Shown: in pieces, positions 22,999 to 41,274 of the stretch
Position numbering within the stretch: the stretch's first letter is position 1
Layout of the letters: each line of letters begins with the position of its first letter
The notes under the pieces: model-generated
The model's input: only the letters and a program-made list of their open reading frames with translations
What the model was told of the DNA's origin: nothing
The model's database searches: none
Source: Linnemannia elongata
Lineage: Eukaryota; Mortierellomycota; Mortierellomycetes; Mortierellales; Mortierellaceae
Assembly (NCBI GenBank): GCA_036320915.1
Contig: JAXBDG010000009.1
Coordinates: 558,001 to 622,000, forward strand
Length of the DNA stretch: 64,000 bases
Direction of reading: 5' to 3'
Position numbers and translations under genes: made by a program

Positions 22999-23081
22999 CC
23001 GAAAATAGCTCAGTTGGTAGAGCGGGAGACTGTAGTTTGTCTGTCATCTCTAGGTCCCTGGTTCAAATCCGGGTTTTCGGA
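22999..23081 (+). tRNA. tRNA-Tyr (GTA) with 10-nt intron
   Basis: The cloverleaf starts CCGAAAA and ends TTTTCGG plus discriminator A (C1-G72, typical of eukaryotic tRNA-Tyr). Anticodon loop CTGTAGA gives GTA. Ten bases (TTTGTCTGTC) interrupt the loop one base after the anticodon, the canonical intron position. T arm CCTGG-TTCAAAT-CCGGG. An identical-length copy is at 41275-41357 on the other strand. Confidence 0.95.
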
Positions 23082-23420
23082 TATCCTTTTGCTTCTTTCC
23101 CTTCCTATCATCGCTCCACTTTTTTGCTCGCGAATAACCGAAAGAAAACCGTCTCCGCTTTGGCGCCCCTAGATCAGCCATCACTCTCCATCCATTTCAT
23201 TTCGCGTTTGATAGTCTTTTTTTTTTTTTTTTTCGCCATTCATTTTCCGAGTAAAAGAAACATCCTTCTTCCTTTTTTTGTCTTCTCTATCTACAAAAAC
23301 GAGGATAGGATAACCAACAAAAGAGGCTTGCTGAAATGTGAACAACAAAGAAAATAGAAAAACGTCGTGTCTTTTATCTGTTTATTCACTCTTCACTCTT
23401 TGCTCTTCACTCTTCACTCT

Positions 23421-32339: not shown

Positions 32340-32644
32340 AGAGTGAAGAGTGAAGAGCAAAGAGTGAAGAGTGAATAAACAGATAAAAGACACGACGTTT
32401 TTCTATTTTCTTTGTTGTTCACATTTCAGCAAGCCTCTTTTGTTGGTTATCCTATCCTCGTTTTTGTAGATAGAGAAGACAAAAAAAGGAAGAAGGATGT
32501 TTCTTTTACTCGGAAAATGAATGGCGAAAAAAAAAAAAAAAAAGACTATCAAACGCGAAATGAAATGGATGGAGAGTGATGGCTGATCTAGGGGCGCCAA
32601 AGCGGAGACGGTTTTCTTTCGGTTATTCGCGAGCAAAAAAGTGG

Positions 32645-32692
32645 GGGTTAATCTATTTGGCAACCCGGGTTGCTCATTTTATTTGACAACCC
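32645..32692 (+). repeat. MULE left terminal inverted repeat
   Basis: Starts GGGTTAATCTATT and contains the 12-bp palindrome CAACCCGGGTTG, then GACAACCC at its inner end. It pairs with 41184-41231 in inverse orientation with six mismatches. A 7-bp-stem hairpin (32692-32709) and further GACAACCC and CAACCGGGTTG copies follow within 80 bases, likely transposase-binding repeats. Confidence 0.93.
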
Positions 32693-32864
32693 TTTCCTTA
32701 TTAGGAAAGTTTCATGGCTTATTTGACAACCCCCCAATCTATTCTCATTTTCCAACCGGGTTGCCGTATAACAGAAGGCCTGAGGCTCAACCGTTTTACC
32801 TGGACTAATATCACCTTGTATTTTTTGTGCATAAATGTTGCGTCTTTGTTTAATCCAGGTCGTT

Positions 32865-33850
32865 CTATGGGTCAAACTGAGAGCGACGATGTTTTCTTGC
32901 ATTGTGACCTTCTCCATTGCATACTCCACATTTTGTCGAGTGCTTCTTGACCTCGGTTACACTCCTTATCCGCGACGTTTTGGGTCTGCCTTTCGTCTTT
33001 ACGTGAACTGGATCCCTCATTCCTTCAACTCCTCTACCTTTCACAATGACTTGATCGAGACTCTCCTTGACCATATCGAACACGTCCGGATTTGAGTCTA
33101 CCACCGTAATAATATCCTTCATCAGACCCGATATCTCGCCATAGCGGCGCTTTTTTGAAAGCTGGCTTTGATCATCTCGCGAGAGGGAGGGCGCCAATGG
33201 AAAAATCTTTTGAATATCGACCATGTACGTGGCGGCAGGGTTGACAGTTGCGTCCTCCAAGCCGACATATGCCTTCTGCGTCTTGGTGCGCAGGAAAGGC
33301 CCCATCGACTTTTCAAGGTCAATTGAATCCTGCAGCTCTTCCTTGAACCACCGTCTGGGAATAAGCTTGAGATGATACTTGCATCGACTATCGACTTGCA
33401 TGAGGTGGAAAAAGTGCCGACACACAAGTCCATTGTTTTGGAGCAGAAGACAAGTACAAAGATACGAGTCGTCGTTCAGCAGGATAACATGCTGTCGTGT
33501 CTTTTGATCAACGTCTAGGCGGTATGTCACATCAAACACGCACTTAATCCGGTCGCAAGTGACAGTTGCCATCAAGGACTTGAGCGAGGTTTTCAGACGG
33601 TCATCCCTGGATGCCTTCTCAATCTACATGCGAAGGTAATAGCAATCATTAATGCCCTAGTCTTTTTTTTTTTTTTTTTTTTTTGGCTTAGCAACTTTCA
33701 TCAACTAACGATCTTTTTTTTTATAAGCTTACCTCCTCCACATCGCCTGCCTCGTTTAATTGCTCCCCACTGCGCTTGGTTGGTGAGCTTTCTTCCTTGG
33801 ACGCCTTTTCAAACTACAGACGAAGGCAATAGCAATCATTAATGCCTTGA

Positions 33851-33883
<33 letters not shown>

Positions 33884-36800
33884 GGCTTGGCAACTTTCAT
33901 CAACTGACGATCTTTTTTTTTTATAAACTTACCTCCTCAACATCGCCTGCCTCGTTTAATTGTTCCCCATTGCGCTCGGTTGGTAGGCCTTCTCCCTTGG
34001 ATGCTCTTTTAAACTACAGACGAAGGCAAGAGCGATCTTCAGCGCCTTATTCATTTTTTTTTGGGGGCTTAGCAACTTTCATCAACAAACGATCTTTTTT
34101 TTTAAATAAGCTTACCTCCTCAACATCGCCTGCCTCGTTTAATTGCTCCCCACTGCGCTCGGTTGGTAGGCCTTCATCCTTGGACGCCTTTTCAAACTAC
34201 AGACGAAGGCAATATCAATCATTAATGCCTTGACCATTTTTTTGGGGGGGCTTTAGTATTTTTCATCATCTCACGATTTTATTATATGCTTACCTTGTCA
34301 TCATCGCCAGCCTCGTTTGGCTGATCTTCATTGCACTCGGCAGCTCTTTCGACCTTGGTAGCTTGGTGCAATTCGGATTGATAATAGATGGATCGCATCA
34401 TCTCCATCATCATCTGGCCTTTTGCTGCGATGCCAAGAAAGCGACTGTTCACATCAATAATATCAGCAAACATCTTCTTGGTGAATTGGGTCAGTGAAGG
34501 ATCAGCTGTCATATCCATCCTGTAGTGTAGATACCGCGACGTCCTGGCCTCATCCGATAGCATCTTTTCAGTAGACTCGAATAGGACTGGAAGGGAGGTC
34601 TTGCTGTTAACGGCTCGCTTGATGATTGCGTTTACACTCTCCACCCTTTGTGTTGCTTGAATTCCAGCGGTGAATCTTGTACCAACCCACGGCCACGCCC
34701 AGTGCTCGCGACGCTTAAAGATCCACTCCAAGTAAGCCTCAACGTCTGGTTTGTCAACGCCAAAGACTTTAACGTGCTGCGACCATCTATTCTCGAAATC
34801 GACAACTGTGAGAGCATTTCGTGTAGTCCAAAAAGTGGAAATAAAAGCCTGCCAGTCCTTGCCGAGCGCGCCACGAAGATTTCTACCTAGATTTTGATGA
34901 CCAAGATGCCAGATGCAGTTCAAGAGAACCGTGCGTCCAATGACGCTGGCGCAGGCAGCTTCCATTGCGTGATCGTTATCGACAATAATAGTATGCGGAG
35001 CAAGATTGTCGTTTGCCATCAACAACTGTCGAAGAATCCACTCATAGTCCTTTGTGTGCTCTCCGGAGACCAATGAACATCCAACCAGGCGATTTTTTCC
35101 ACTGTTGTCGACGATAACGATAGCATTGAAGGGCATACCAAACCGGTTCGTCTTGAAGGTATTATCGCTGAGGACCACATCCCGATAACGTCGGTAGAGG
35201 GATCTCTGAGAAGGACTCATCCAGAATATTCGTTGAAGGCGTCCTTCGGCATCAAGTTCTGTTGCAAAGTACCATTCCTTGTCCTTGCGCGCCTTGTCTT
35301 GTAGAAGCTTGTATAACTCTGCAGCCTCGGAGCCATCAGAGTACACATTGTTCCTCGCCTTTTGGATGGCGTTAGTGACCGTTCGAAGATCGAACACCTT
35401 GTCAGGCCACTCTTGATTCAGCAAGTAGATAATTTGCTTTGCGTTGAATCTGCCTGCCAGAGAAGAAATCTGCTCCAGCATTTTGTCGGTAAGCTGTCTG
35501 TCGCGTCGGTTGAATTCCATGGTGCCTTGCTCGAACCCGTGACCGCTGTGAGCTGTGACAGCGGTGGTGATGTGCCAGTACGGAGATATCATTTTTGGAG
35601 ATCGAAGAACAATACGGCAAGGACAGTTGGTGCGCTTGGAAATCTTGTTGCGATGCTTTTCTGGATCCACGTTTTTCCGCGATTCGTGTTTGCCGGCGTA
35701 AGAGCAACCAAAAATTACTATGCATAAACAAAATACATGGGTTAGACGGAAATTGTATTCAAGGAGGAGCACGTACAACTAGCAGTTTCATTATTTACCT
35801 CGGGGACATTGGCCATGTTGTTCTTCAAGTCTAGACTGCATTCGTCGCAACTGAAATCCTTGTCGGTGTGCCCAAGGATGGACCAGATCTTCAAAGATCT
35901 CCAGACTTTCAAATTGTTGGCCAAGCTGAGGTATCCACATCGATCCGTTATTCGTCTCATCAGGCTTGTCCACCACGCTAGTTTCACCACCAGCATTGTC
36001 CTCAGCAACTTCCCCTCCAGTGATCTCCACCTCAGAAATCTCCACCTGAGGAATCCCAACCTCAGAAATCTCCTCCTCGGCAATCTCCTCATCAGCAATC
36101 TCCACCTCAGAAATCTCTACCTCGACAATCTCCTCCTCAGAAATCTCCACCTCAGAAATCTCCACCTCAGAAATCTCCACCTCGGCAATCTCCTCCTCAG
36201 AAATCTCCACCTCAGAAATCTCCACCTCGGCAATCTCCTCCTCAGAAATCTCCTCCTCAGAAATCTCCACCTCGGCAATCTCCTCCTCAGATATCTCCTC
36301 CTCAGAAATCTCCACCTCAGAAATCTCCACCTCGGCAATCTCCTCCTTACCAATCTCCTCACTAACCTTCCCCATAGCAGCCTTCATTCCCGATACGGCT
36401 CTGTGATCAAGTATCTTTACCTCTCGGTTCCGATCACTTTTTGTAGCAACATTGCAATGACCTTGAGGTTCGATCTACATGTTAACAGCGGTTGTTAGGT
36501 TGTAAAGAAAGATATTTTCATACATAGTAATGAAGCTTGATGTTTTGTAACAATATTTACCTTGCTATAGCCAGTTACCAGCTTAAGAAGCCTTAATCGA
36601 TGTTGCGCAGACTTTGTATGGGTCCAAATTGCCGTCCTTGGATTCACGCTCCTCTCCACTGCATTAATGGCATTAACAGCGCACGATCCGCTTCCAGGAG
36701 GTTGTTGAGGAACGGCAAAGTGTCCAGTGTCGCAGTCCCACCGACCAATGTCAATGCCGCAGCATTTTATCCAATTGCGAACGTTGTTGATGGTCACTTC

Positions 36801-37738
36801 AGGGATAGAACACGAGAGAGAATCCCCGAATGAGATCTTGCGCCGCTCAAAATCGACTTCAAGAGCACCCCAGTGATCCGGCATATGAACAATCGCGAAT
36901 GCCTTTTCAAGTCGCCCACTCTTGACTAGGTCCTTCTTCCATTCCCAAAGGATATTTTGACCCCAGAGAATGATTTGAAGGGGAGGAATGAAGAGATATC
37001 GATCGTTTGCACCATATGACATGGAAAAGAGCTCCATGACTGTACGCACAATCTCATCGTCAATGTAAATCTCTTTCATGAGGTCAAAGGTGTTTGAAAT
37101 GCCTAGCGACGCGCCAGACGTTGGATTGAATTTCCACATCATGATGCCCGGGGTAGTGTAAAGAAGGGTACGGAACCAATCGGCGAACTCACGGTCGGAA
37201 TTTACATCGATCCAATTCAGTATCTCTCTGGCCTTGACGATGAAAATGTTCGTGTCCACCGCACCTAGTAAGATCTTGACAGCTGCGGATGTAAAATCGC
37301 CTATGCCTTCGATACGAATTCCCCAAGCCCCTTCAGCTTCAACTATAAAAAAAGGATTACTAAAGTTAGCACAGAGTTATATACCAAAAAAAAATGGGAG
37401 GGGGGGTTGTCGAATAGTTCAATCCAAAAAATGATGCAAAGGCAAATGAAAACGATATTGTTTATGCGCTTCATACCTAACATGGAGTTGGCTTGCAAAG
37501 CAATGTTTCTTGATGGAATAGTCCTGAGGGCTGCGAGTCTGGCCTCATATATCCTCTCCTTGGGTGGCGGGGGCTCATAGATGACCTCAACGTTGGCATT
37601 TGTTTTGATATTGGGCAAGGGAATTCCCAGCAACATTCGACCGGTCTGCAACTTTTGCCAGTAAGTACTGTACATAACCCTTGACTCTTTAGATTTTGGA
37701 GGACAGTCCTCAACAGGAATAGGCTCGGTGCTTGACAT
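32865..37738 (-). CDS. Ulp1-protease / FAR1 / MULE transposase / SWIM fusion protein
   Basis: Eight exons (37477-37738, 36561-37342, 35799-36474, 34294-35717, 34116-34196, 33933-34013, 33733-33813, 32865-33623) stay in frame and predict 1,381 residues. In order: a novel N-terminus; a Ulp1-like C48 cysteine protease (about 150-310) with candidate triad His in DHWGALEVDF, Asp in SFGDSL and Cys in QQPPGSGSCAVNAIN; an acidic EVEIS/EEEIS repeat linker (about 385-503); a FAR1/WRKY-GCM1-like zinc domain (about 535-615); MULE transposase with DDE residues near 758 (LSDNTFKTN), 820 (IIVDNDHAM) and 933 (TQRVESVNAIIK); three 27-residue repeats (1049-1129); a SWIM finger (CTC..CRH, about 1185-1199); and a C-terminal CGVCNGEGHNARKH knuckle. 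Introns have good GTAAGC/GTAAAT sites. Without splicing of 36475-36560 a Ulp1-only protein would end at 36495, so protease and transposase might also be made separately. A TATA box sits at 37924-37930. Confidence 0.82.
33624..34293 (-). repeat. Tandemly duplicated exon-intron modules in the transposase gene
   Basis: Three 81-bp exons (34116-34196, 33933-34013, 33733-33813), each encoding a near-identical 27-residue module that begins F-E/K-K/R-A-S-K and ends NEAGDVEE, are separated by 102-119-bp introns with T-rich (plus strand) runs. Spacing is 183-200 bp. The end of exon 4 (NEAGDDDK) and the start of exon 8 (IEKASRDD) match the module ends, so the unit arose by repeated duplication across an ancestral intron. 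Each exon is phase 0, so any number of copies keeps frame. Confidence 0.9.
36005..36365 (-). repeat. 15-bp coding minisatellite (acidic pentapeptide repeat)
   Basis: About two dozen copies of a 15-bp unit (plus strand CTCCACCTCAGAAAT and close variants) encode alternating EVEIS, EEEIS and EEEIA pentapeptides between the protease and the DNA-binding domain of the fusion. A flexible acidic linker is likely; copy number should vary between element copies. Confidence 0.9.
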
Positions 37739-37923
37739 TCTAGCTTTACAATCAGCACAACATCAACTATTAACAACTGCATATTGTTCAAGTGCAACAA
37801 GACTGGATATAAGTTTAATACTAACCGGGAACTGCGGGAAAAAGAGATCAGCAAAGGATGGGTCAAGAGTGTAACAAGTAAGCTCGATGGTTTTTTTCCT
37901 ATCCTACCTTATCCTATATCAGC

Positions 37924-37930
37924 TTTTATA
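37924..37930 (-). promoter_or_regulatory. TATA box of the Ulp1-transposase gene
   Basis: TATAAAA on the minus strand, about 190 bases upstream of the proposed ATG at 37738. Confidence 0.45.
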
Positions 37931-38239
37931 GCTTATTGCTGATGTGTCAAAAATAGGAGAAAACCGCCTTTCCTTTAGCACAAATTACACCTATTCATTA
38001 TGGATCAAGCAGCTCTAAAGTCTCTTACAAGTGACAGAGAGTACAGGGTTGTCAAAAGTAATCGTCTTGCGCTGGTATGCTTAAAATTGTAGCGGGACCA
38101 GTTTATGTTGCAAGTCCGCAACACATCAATTCCCAGCTGTACCATTTGCGATGCATCAAAAAAAAAAAAGATAGAAAGCCAGGTGCCTTGCACATATACT
38201 ACGGTACCACAATGGTTGGATGCGTATGTATGCTATGTG

Positions 38240-39650
38240 ATGCTCCAGTCCGCTTTCAAGGAAAAAAAAAATTTTGGAAGGAAGAGAGGCGTCTCGCACA
38301 CTTCCTACGATATCTTGAAGGATGTATGTACATGCCTGTTCCTCTTTCTAGGAAAAAAAATTTTTTTGGAAGGAAGCAAGGCGTCTCGCACACTTCCTAC
38401 GATATCTTTAAGGATGTATGTACATGCCTGCTGCATACCATGCTCCGTTCTCAAGGAAAATTGTTTTTGCAAGGAAGAGAGGCGTCTCGCACACTTGCTA
38501 CGATATCTTTAAGGATATATGTACATGCCTGTTGCATACCATGCTCCGTTCCTCTTTCGGGGAAAAAATATTTTTTTGGAAGGAAGGGAGGCGTCTCGCA
38601 CACTTCCTACGATATCTTGAAGGATGTATGTACATGCCTGCTGCATACCATGCTCCGTTCTCAAGGAAAATTGTTTTTGCAAGGAAGAGAGGCGTCTCGC
38701 ACACTTCCTACGATATCTTGAAGGATGTATGTACATGCCTGTTGCATACCATGCTCCGTTCTCAAGGAAAATTGTTTTTGCAAGGAAGAGAGGCGTCTCG
38801 CACACTTGCTACGATATCTTTAAGGATGTATGTACATGCCTGTTGCATACCATGCCCCGTTCCTCTTTCGGGGAAAAAATATTTTTTTGGAAGGAAGGGA
38901 GGCGTCTCGCACACTTCCTACGATATCTTTAAGGATGTATGTACATGCCTGCTGCATACCATGCTCCGTTCTCAAGGAAAATTGTTTTTGCAAGGAAGAG
39001 AGGCGTCTCGCACACTTCCTACGATAACTTGAAGGATGTATGTACATGCCTGCTGCATACCATGCTCCGTTCTCAAGGAAAATTGTTTTTGCAAGGAAGA
39101 GAGGCGTCTCGCACACTTCCTACGATATCTTGAAGGATGTATGTACATGCCTGTTGCATACCATGCTCCGTTCCCAAGGAAAATTGTTTTTGCAAGGAAG
39201 AGAGGCGTCTCGCACACTTCCTACGATATCTTGAAGGATGTATGTACATGCCTGTTGCATACCATGCTCCGTTCTCAAGGAAAATTGTTTTTGCAAGGAA
39301 GAGAGGCGTCTCGCACACTTCCTACGATATCTTGAAGGATGTATGTACATGCCTGTTGCATACCATGCTCCGTTCCCAAGGAAAATTGTTTTTGCAAGGA
39401 AGAGAGGCGTCTCGCACACTTCCTACGATATCTTTAAGGATGTATGTGCATGCCTGTTGCATACCATGCCCCGTTCCTCTTTCGGGGAAAAAATATTTTT
39501 TTGGAAGGAAGGGAGGCGTCTCGCACACTTCCTACGATATCTTTAAGGATGTATGTACATGCCCGTTGCATACCATGCTCCGTTCTCAAGGAGAATTGTT
39601 TTTGCAAGGAAGAGAGGCGCCTTACACACTTGCTACGATACCTCAATGAA
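38240..39650. repeat. 14-copy tandem repeat (101/109 bp) inside the MULE
   Basis: The word GCGTCTCGC marks the units, with starts near 38289, 38381, 38482, 38591, 38692, 38793, 38902, 39003, 39104, 39205, 39306, 39407 and 39516, and a degenerate last one (GCGCCTTAC) near 39617. Spacings are 92, then 101 or 109. The 109-bp variant carries CCTCTTTCGGGGAAAAAATA in place of CTCAAGGAAAATTG. Each unit contains ATGTATGTACATGCC and CTACGATATCTT. It fills the spacer between the two divergent genes of the element, so it is likely a shared regulatory or transposase-binding array. Open frames across it are by-products of the period. Confidence 0.95.
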
Positions 39651-39770
39651 TATACATATATATGGCTACTCAGCTAGCTTGATCAAGTATCTCTTTCAGA
39701 GTATTGTCTTATTCATAATCATCTGTTGAATAGTGAACTTTGGATTATGCATTTTCATATCAATGGTTTG

Positions 39771-39778
39771 TATATAAA
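39771..39778 (+). promoter_or_regulatory. TATA box of the MULE zinc-finger gene
   Basis: TATATAAA lies 106-113 bases upstream of the preferred ATG at 39884. Confidence 0.45.
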
Positions 39779-39883
39779 ATGAGGCACATAAATATCCGAA
39801 AACATAGCACCTCCGATTCCTCACACATTCTTCATCTTCTTGCCAACCCCATCTCACTAAACCTTCCAGCACCCTCTCTTGGC

Positions 39884-40819
39884 ATGCCTCGCGGAACCAT
39901 TTGTTCGTACTATGATTGTGGCCAAGGCCTTCTTGTCCTTGGTCGACCACTATCCAAGGCTCAAAAGAACCACGTTGTAGCCTACCACACAGACCAACCC
40001 ATCACATTCATTTGCAGGCATACCGATCAACCAACCACTTTCAATCGACAAATCGCAAAGGGCATGGATTTTGTCTGCTACTGTGGATCAACCTTTACCC
40101 TTAACTCGTCTCTACAACGCCACTATCAGCTCTGCAAGGTTGCGAAAAACACCGCTCTAGAGGCACTCAAGAAGACGGCGCAAGTCGATGGTTCGGTTCC
40201 TAGACAAGAGAAAGATGTATCTTTACGCTTATCCGACTCAACCGGCGGCATCTCAAGCGCCAGTACCTCAAGCTTCGGCGCCTCAAGGGGCGGCACCTCG
40301 AACGGCGGCACTTCGAACGGCGGCACTTCAAGCAGCAGTACCTCGAGCGACGGCACCTCATGCGGCGACGTCATTGTTTCACGTGCGCCCACATCAATGG
40401 CCTTGGTGGCTGAACCTACTATCGGGCAGCTTCTGGAGCAAAAAATGATTGAGCGTCATCAAGTTTTCTTGGAGTCATTCACCGAGCATACGACAGCCCA
40501 GCATGCCAAGTTTATGGCTTCAATGACCGAGAACCATATGACGTTCTTACAGGCTTTCACCACTGCTCAAGTTCAACAAAGCACCGATCTTCAGAGCGCC
40601 CTCGCGGAACAACATCGCAAGGCCTTCGAGCAACAGCGTATTTACCTTGATATCCAGCAGAAAAGGCAAGAAGAGTTGATGTACGAACAAAAGCTCACTA
40701 GAGATACAGTCAAGAGCCTTTTATCAACAAAGCGTGAAGGATCGTTCACTTTGGAGGTTGATGAACAAGCCCTCAAGAGAATTCAAAACGATCCAGTTTA
40801 CGTTGTTCGTCCTCATTAG
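39884..40819 (+). CDS. MULE accessory zinc-finger / coiled-coil protein
   Basis: Single exon, 311 residues from the preferred start MPRGTICSYYDCGQ; the frame is open upstream to 39740, but that start would lie before the TATA box at 39771. A finger-like segment (CYCGSTFTLNSSLQRHYQLC, about residues 64-83) has Cys, Cys, His, Cys spacing similar to C2H2-type fingers with a Cys replacing the last His. A Ser/Gly/Thr linker follows, with repeated GGTSN units. The C-terminal 150 residues are Gln/Glu/His-rich and probably helical or coiled-coil. It is transcribed divergently from the transposase gene within the same element. A DNA-binding helper in transposition or silencing evasion is a guess from position only; no family was recognised. 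Confidence 0.65.
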   Translation: MPRGTICSYYDCGQGLLVLGRPLSKAQKNHVVAYHTDQPITFICRHTDQPTTFNRQIAKGMDFVCYCGSTFTLNSSLQRHYQLCKVAKNTALEALKKTAQVDGSVPRQEKDVSLRLSDSTGGISSASTSSFGASRGGTSNGGTSNGGTSSSSTSSDGTSCGDVIVSRAPTSMALVAEPTIGQLLEQKMIERHQVFLESFTEHTTAQHAKFMASMTENHMTFLQAFTTAQVQQSTDLQSALAEQHRKAFEQQRIYLDIQQKRQEELMYEQKLTRDTVKSLLSTKREGSFTLEVDEQALKRIQNDPVYVVRPH

Positions 40820-41183
40820 ACAATAAACGTATATTCTACTATAAAAGCAGCAGAGCAAGTGGGTGTGAGCAAGGGAATAGAAGGAGACAAGTGTATAGAC
40901 AGGGGCTTAAGAAACAAGGGTAGAGAACAAGGTACACCCGTGTCAAGACAAAAGAAAGGGGCAAGAAAAGATGCTGTTAATGGTACAGGGGAACTGCGGT
41001 ACTTTTATATGCTTGGTTAAATGGTGATGGCAGCGTGATTGGGGGCCAGATAGCTGAGTGTAGAGGTATGGCAGATGTATTTGAGGCAGTGGCACAGAAG
41101 CGTTGACAGAGGCTGGTGCCAATGCTTTGAAGGGTGTAATATCGCAACCCGGTTGACAAATTATTTTGCAAAGTGTGACTGCC

Positions 41184-41231
41184 GGGTTGTCAGCTAAGGT
41201 GAGCAACCCGGGTTGTCGAATAGATTAACCC
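41184..41231 (-). repeat. MULE right terminal inverted repeat
   Basis: Reverse complement begins GGGTTAATCTATTCGAC and contains CAACCCGGGTTGCTCA, matching the left end. Immediately outside is the target duplication AAAAAGTGG (41232-41240). Further inward, GCAACCCGGTTGACAAA (about 41145) and CCGGGTTGTC (about 41182) repeat the same word. Confidence 0.93.
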
Positions 41232-41274
41232 AAAAAGTGGAGCGATGATAGGAAGGGAAAGAAGCAAAAGGATA

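Follow-up and report, generated by a model that had tools for sequence, protein, structure and literature searches.

The analysis of a 64,000-nucleotide stretch of the Linnemannia elongata genome (assembly GCA_036320915.1, contig JAXBDG010000009.1, positions 558,001 to 622,000; hereafter the window, to which all positions without a contig label refer) pointed to a Mutator-like element (MULE) whose transposase is predicted to be one chain, composed of a C48/Ulp1 protease, a linker, a FAR1 domain, a DDE core, a SWIM motif and a zinc knuckle. The protein would thus be a deSUMOylase tethered to a transposase, a reading to which a probability of about 70% was assigned. The single chain of protease and MULE transposase is well supported at the level of sequence, because the same order and the same phase-0 junction intron were found in three families of this genome (A, to which the element belongs, B and C) and because predicted proteins from other records matched both sides of the linker. 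The element itself is a MULE DNA transposon of this fungus and has been mobile recently.

Gene Structure and Transposase Domains

Reconstruction of the fusion gene from the minus strand of the window (37738-32865) gave eight predicted exons separated by seven GT-AG introns and a product of 1,381 residues, which bore out the exon count and the single open frame given in the initial annotation. Exon 1 (37477-37738) encodes the N-terminal region and exon 2 (36561-37342; residues 89-348) the Ulp1/C48-type protease domain, recognized by alignment, profile and predicted fold, with the catalytic codons at 36873-36875 (H), 36822-36824 (D) and 36681-36683 (C). The junction intron (36475-36560; phase 0, 86 nt, GTAAAT...TGTAG), which has counterparts in families B and C, leads into exon 3 (35799-36474), where Pfam and a repeat scan placed the start of the FAR1 domain and an acidic linker with 15-nt tandem units (36023-36358). 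Exon 4 (34294-35717) completes FAR1 and contains the DDE core (matched by Pfam MULE at residues 754-845), and the SWIM motif and zinc knuckle were read in the sequence of exon 8 (32865-33623). Exons 5, 6 and 7 (34116-34196, 33933-34013 and 33733-33813) were identified by the repeat scan as a tandemly repeated exon of 81 nt. Together with their introns they form a tandem array (33663-34243) that repeats about every 183-200 bp, all in phase 0, as though an exon-intron unit had been amplified within the transposase gene.

A DDE domain of the MULE type was found in the full chain by Pfam (PF10551, E = 9.6e-21, over the cut-off), together with ZSWIM1-3 RNaseH-like (6e-10) and FAR1 (1.2e-7), and D758, D820/D822 and E933 fell in columns invariant across families A, B and C. 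Neither C48 nor SWIM was matched by Pfam in the window chain at E 1. The SWIM finger (C-x-C...C-x-H from residue 1184) and the knuckle (from residue 1361) were read as motifs, in patterns which we take to be the characteristic ones. The domain order proposed from the first inspection of the DNA was thus upheld by Pfam for FAR1 and MULE and by motif readings for SWIM and the zinc knuckle, while its C48 part was not recovered by Pfam from the window protein.

Assignment of the Protease

The C48 assignment rests on a profile and a predicted fold, because the window protease alone gave no significant phmmer match against the PDB (best E = 0.12, SENP5). A three-family protease profile had SENP1 and Ulp1 as its top matches (SENP1 at E = 7.1e-11), and the predicted fold of the domain matched SENP/Ulp1, i.e., an Ulp1 fold. 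With PF02902 and a limit of E 10, two of the three family members gave a match (the best being 6.9e-6) and the window protein alone gave none. The profile check that the initial annotation had put forward for C48 therefore failed with Pfam on the window protein and succeeded with the three-family profile, the predicted fold agreeing with it. One stronger Pfam C48 place was present in the same genome (C2:1680316-1681041), a candidate to consider for a possible derivation of the domain from a host Ulp1.

The full catalytic set, H244, D261, Q301 and C308, aligned with that of SENP1 and was invariant in A, B and C; the H, D, Q and C were also aligned in P0006-P0009, four predicted proteins from other records that are described below. 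By profile and predicted fold, the domain is a C48/Ulp1-type cysteine protease, which would act upon SUMO or a protein resembling it. A deneddylase, a deubiquitinase or a mere binding module for a ubiquitin-like protein was considered in its place and is thought unlikely, given that the top profile matches were SENP1 and Ulp1 and that the catalytic residues were retained in the three families and in P0006-P0009.

Conservation of the Junction

The genome searched comprised 51.1 Mb in 32 contigs, and at least 22 loci in it exceeded the PF10551 cut-off (11 of family A, 2 of B and 9 of C). Comparison of coordinates placed a protease match upstream and on the same strand at all 22, five of these matches being weak (E 0.001) and belonging to a C subfamily, and the searches with the transposase and with the protease reached the same sets of places. 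The DNA was read for the 11 A loci, one B locus and two C loci, and the other 8 of the 22 were taken from match tables only. Outside the 22 were two MULE matches under the cut-off (C30:847k), a degenerate A-like copy (L060, C14:890-892k) and a protease-like fragment (L059, C4:199k). In one copy of the C subfamily (L058) the protease and transposase parts both looked broken.

Without their linkers, the chains of B and C were 32 and 31% identical to that of A, and their protease domains 30 and 21%. In family B (L056), the protease exon closes at a GTAAGT donor in phase 0, and the linker is followed by FAR1, with a phase-1 intron like that of A, the DDE core, the SWIM motif and a CCHC knuckle; two introns in total were counted from the protease start. 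In family C (L057), the protease ends in phase 0 with ...GFDK before GTACAC, at the position that equals ...GYSK before GTAAAT in A, the linker exons stay in phase 0 up to FAR1, and the FAR1 intron is again in phase 1, as read from the junctions in the sequence.

The place and phase of the junction were identical in the three families despite their low identity, and the gaps measured merely 86 (A), 97 (B) and 96 nt (C). Both results argue against two adjacent genes on the same strand, one for the protease and one for the transposase as in some plant MULEs that carry ULP, in which case the junction intron would go unused and the join would be an artefact of prediction. Such an arrangement would fit the stop that the unspliced protease frame meets about 20 codons further on and the methionines that occur soon past the junction. 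The frequency of chance joins was obtained from dinucleotide shuffles of the junction interval, 1000 per family at one locus each of A, B and C. A permissible in-frame join arose in 377 of the 1000 shuffles for A (38%), and on this account the join in family A would by itself prove little, which, like the stop and the methionines, counts in favour of two genes. In B and C the figures were 46/1000 and 97/1000, so that the joint chance of an in-frame join in all three families, if they are independent, is about 0.2% even before the same place and phase are required.

Predicted proteins from other records also bore on this question. A first protein-database search yielded none of 7,996 candidates at E 0.001, many of which the repetitive linker had probably attracted, and a second, with the transposase, yielded one of 3,190, a quinoa FAR1. 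The third, with the three-family alignment, returned 5 of 7,492 candidates at E 1e-5: P0005 (Mortierella sp. GBA35), P0006 (Mortierella sp. GBA30, partial), P0007 (ENA), P0008 (Dissophora globulifera) and P0009, the organism names of P0005, P0006 and P0008 being source labels. These nearest matches would point to a mortierellaceous host. Both sides of the linker of A were matched by P0005 (residues 1-252 and 441-721) and P0006 (residues 1-327 and 543-650), and P0007 aligned with residues 39-562 of A as one stretch. The BLAST matches of P0008 and P0009 covered the protease side only, with a FAR1-like start seen by eye near the end of P0008; Pfam scored FAR1 just over the cut-off in P0005 and under it in P0006. 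The part with the Cys is absent from P0005, and none of the five proteins covered the whole chain. The identity between A and P0005 was 49% on the protease side and 48% on the side of the linker, FAR1 and early transposase, an equal likeness that is expected if both sides are constrained. No relatives were detected in 47 pattern stretches from viral contigs or 116 from prokaryote genome contigs, collections that are not meant to hold fungi.

The comparison across A, B, C and P0005-P0007 supported, in the predicted frame, the joining of protease and transposase in one chain that had first been read from the window, and two separate genes are considered distinctly unlikely. As a separate observation, the frame of P0007 appears open from protease to linker even at the position of the junction intron of family A, and fusion in this protein might or might not depend on splicing.

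The self-processing suggested in the initial annotation found no support: autocatalytic cleavage of a fused precursor within the linker, with release of protease and transposase, would suit the long low-complexity linker between the two parts and the Gly-Gly pairs in family A (two) and B (one), but is most improbable, since the other four of the six linkers (C, P0005, P0006 and P0008) contain no Gly-Gly, no ubiquitin-like domain was among the Pfam matches of the chain, and Ulp1-type enzymes require a SUMO fold ahead of the cleavage site. SUMO-interacting motifs in the linker were also counted and are not claimed, as the observed numbers (shuffle means in brackets) were inconsistent between families: A 2 (5.0), B 3 (0.1), C 0 (0.4), P0005 0 (0.5), P0006 0 (0.0) and P0008 5 (1.6).

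Mobility and Further Contents of the Element

The whole family A element spans 8,587 bp (32645-41231), as delimited by its terminal inverted repeats (TIRs), by edges common to 11 copies and by a paralogous empty site. The TIR at the 3' end of the fusion gene (32645-32692, plus strand) is 48 bp long and 88% complementary to that of the other end (41184-41231, minus strand), which was located by inverted-repeat comparison. Identical target site duplications (TSDs) of 9 bp flank the element at 32636-32644 and 41232-41240 on the plus strand. When the flanks were joined and one duplication removed, 191 of 191 bases were identical to an empty site inside the window (23025-23215, reverse strand). By its appearance, the sequence adjoining this site is a candidate 3' half of a tRNA.

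Family A was represented in the genome by 11 near-identical copies of 7,405-8,587 bp. Perfect 9-bp duplications, all different and within the 8-11 bp typical of MULEs, flanked 10 of them, and the C12 copy showed 7 bp. Near-identical copies with separate target duplications indicate recent transposition. The 11 aligned genes differed by a few single-copy substitutions, the lengths of poly-A in introns, whole 15-nt linker units and one single-base deletion, and the frame was intact in 10 copies and shifted in exon 1 of the other. Because the linker repeat unit is 15 nt, its in-frame changes of length are uninformative on selection.

A minisatellite of about 101-bp units, detected by the repeat scan (38240-39640), lies between the fusion gene and a second, divergent gene, and the length of the array varies between copies. 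The second gene (39884-40819, plus strand) is an open reading frame (ORF) of 311 aa, in which a C2H2-like motif was read by eye near the N-terminus and Pfam found nothing over the cut-off. It was present in all 11 A copies and in the degenerate C14 copy (82%), and a weak match (34%, residues 6-87) stood beside four family C loci; one more weak match (C6:421k) falls outside this count. Thirteen further places, including C1:1781330, C32:1813107, C31:995921 and C30:981239, resembled the inverted repeat at 87-89% over no more than its first 46 bp, and are possibly non-autonomous elements or another family with similar ends.

Discussion

As described in two sources, Kaonashi (KI) MULEs carry ULP in another gene, in reverse orientation to mudrA, and have no TIRs (PMC13317346, PMC2528002), which agrees with the earlier choice of Kaonashi as the closest plant parallel, in which ULP is encoded separately. 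Kaonashi and the other ULP-carrying MULEs described from plants (Arabidopsis, melon, rice and grapevine) share with the element of L. elongata a MULE with an Ulp1 domain. In contrast to Kaonashi, the fungal element has TIRs of 48 bp and carries protease and transposase on the same strand, with a predicted frame that continues across the junction intron; its Ulp1 domain would be N-terminal in the transposase chain, and its host is a fungus. In grapevine, MULE families are also described that carry ULP1 in the transposase frame and that may or may not encode a single chain (PMC2528002).

An Ulp1 domain on the transposase itself is given in a figure legend for Ginger1 and "Mutator TPases," and its authors proposed a role in transposition (PMC2836005). 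Ginger1 and the Mutator proteins of hydra and lancelet are alike in this to the fungal element, the comparison of domain layout being confined to Ginger1. Ginger1 combines a Gypsy-integrase-type transposase with a C-terminal Ulp1 or OTU protease, whereas the fungal chain has a Pfam MULE core and an N-terminal protease. CACTA elements with ULP1 occur in grapevine and rice, with rice proteins described as containing Tnp2 transposase plus ULP1 (PMC2528002), and belong to another transposase superfamily. Oomycete Cryptons are likewise DNA transposons that encode a C48/Ulp1 peptidase, but use a tyrosine recombinase and not a DDE enzyme, and in CryptonS the peptidase is in an additional protein (PMC3212892). 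In view of the precedents in Ginger1, the "Mutator TPases," rice CACTA and grapevine MULEs, the fusion is a variant of something known and not the first Ulp1 transposase.

Among fungal MULEs, MULE-Mucorales, Hop and Mutyl are described with a TSD of 9-10 bp, short TIRs and a SWIM or zinc finger, similar to the present element, and Mutyl has a second ORF, as in family A (PMC6446971). The words Ulp1, protease and peptidase occur nowhere in the main text of that survey. The comparison also took in accounts of Mucoromycotina genomes (PMC7928374) and arthropod MULEs (PMC13359780). No fungal Ulp1-MULE fusion was named in titles or abstract openings among the matches listed for the open-licence literature, in which Repbase is not covered.

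The activity, substrate and place of action of the protease are inferred. The mRNA would be spliced as predicted, joining the protease to the transposase, and FAR1 and the other DNA-binding parts would recruit the protease to the element and to its target. There it may deSUMOylate the transposase complex, chromatin or factors of silencing and repair, and SUMO removal would favour expression or integration. SUMO stripping at chromatin is plausible. SUMOylation of the host factor HMGXB4 is reported for the Sleeping Beauty transposon (PMC10138897), which makes a link to SUMO plausible, yet is not evidence for the fungal element.

A broader proposal is offered tentatively, as one that may well not hold: that in one clade of fungal MULEs a SUMO-type protease became permanently built into the N-terminal end of the transposase, supplying a deSUMOylase in cis to each transpososome, that the fusion is older than the split between families now about 31-32% identical, and that transposition or escape from silencing depends on the protease. 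Ulp1-type proteases recur in plant MULEs, Ginger, Cryptons and CACTA, and a role for them is only suggested in the accounts available (PMC2836005, PMC13317346). Here the protease appears to be physically tied to the transposase, with a protease match upstream at each of the 22 loci (a lower bound) whose MULE domain passed the cut-off in one genome, and the fusion belongs to a family that has 11 nearly identical members.
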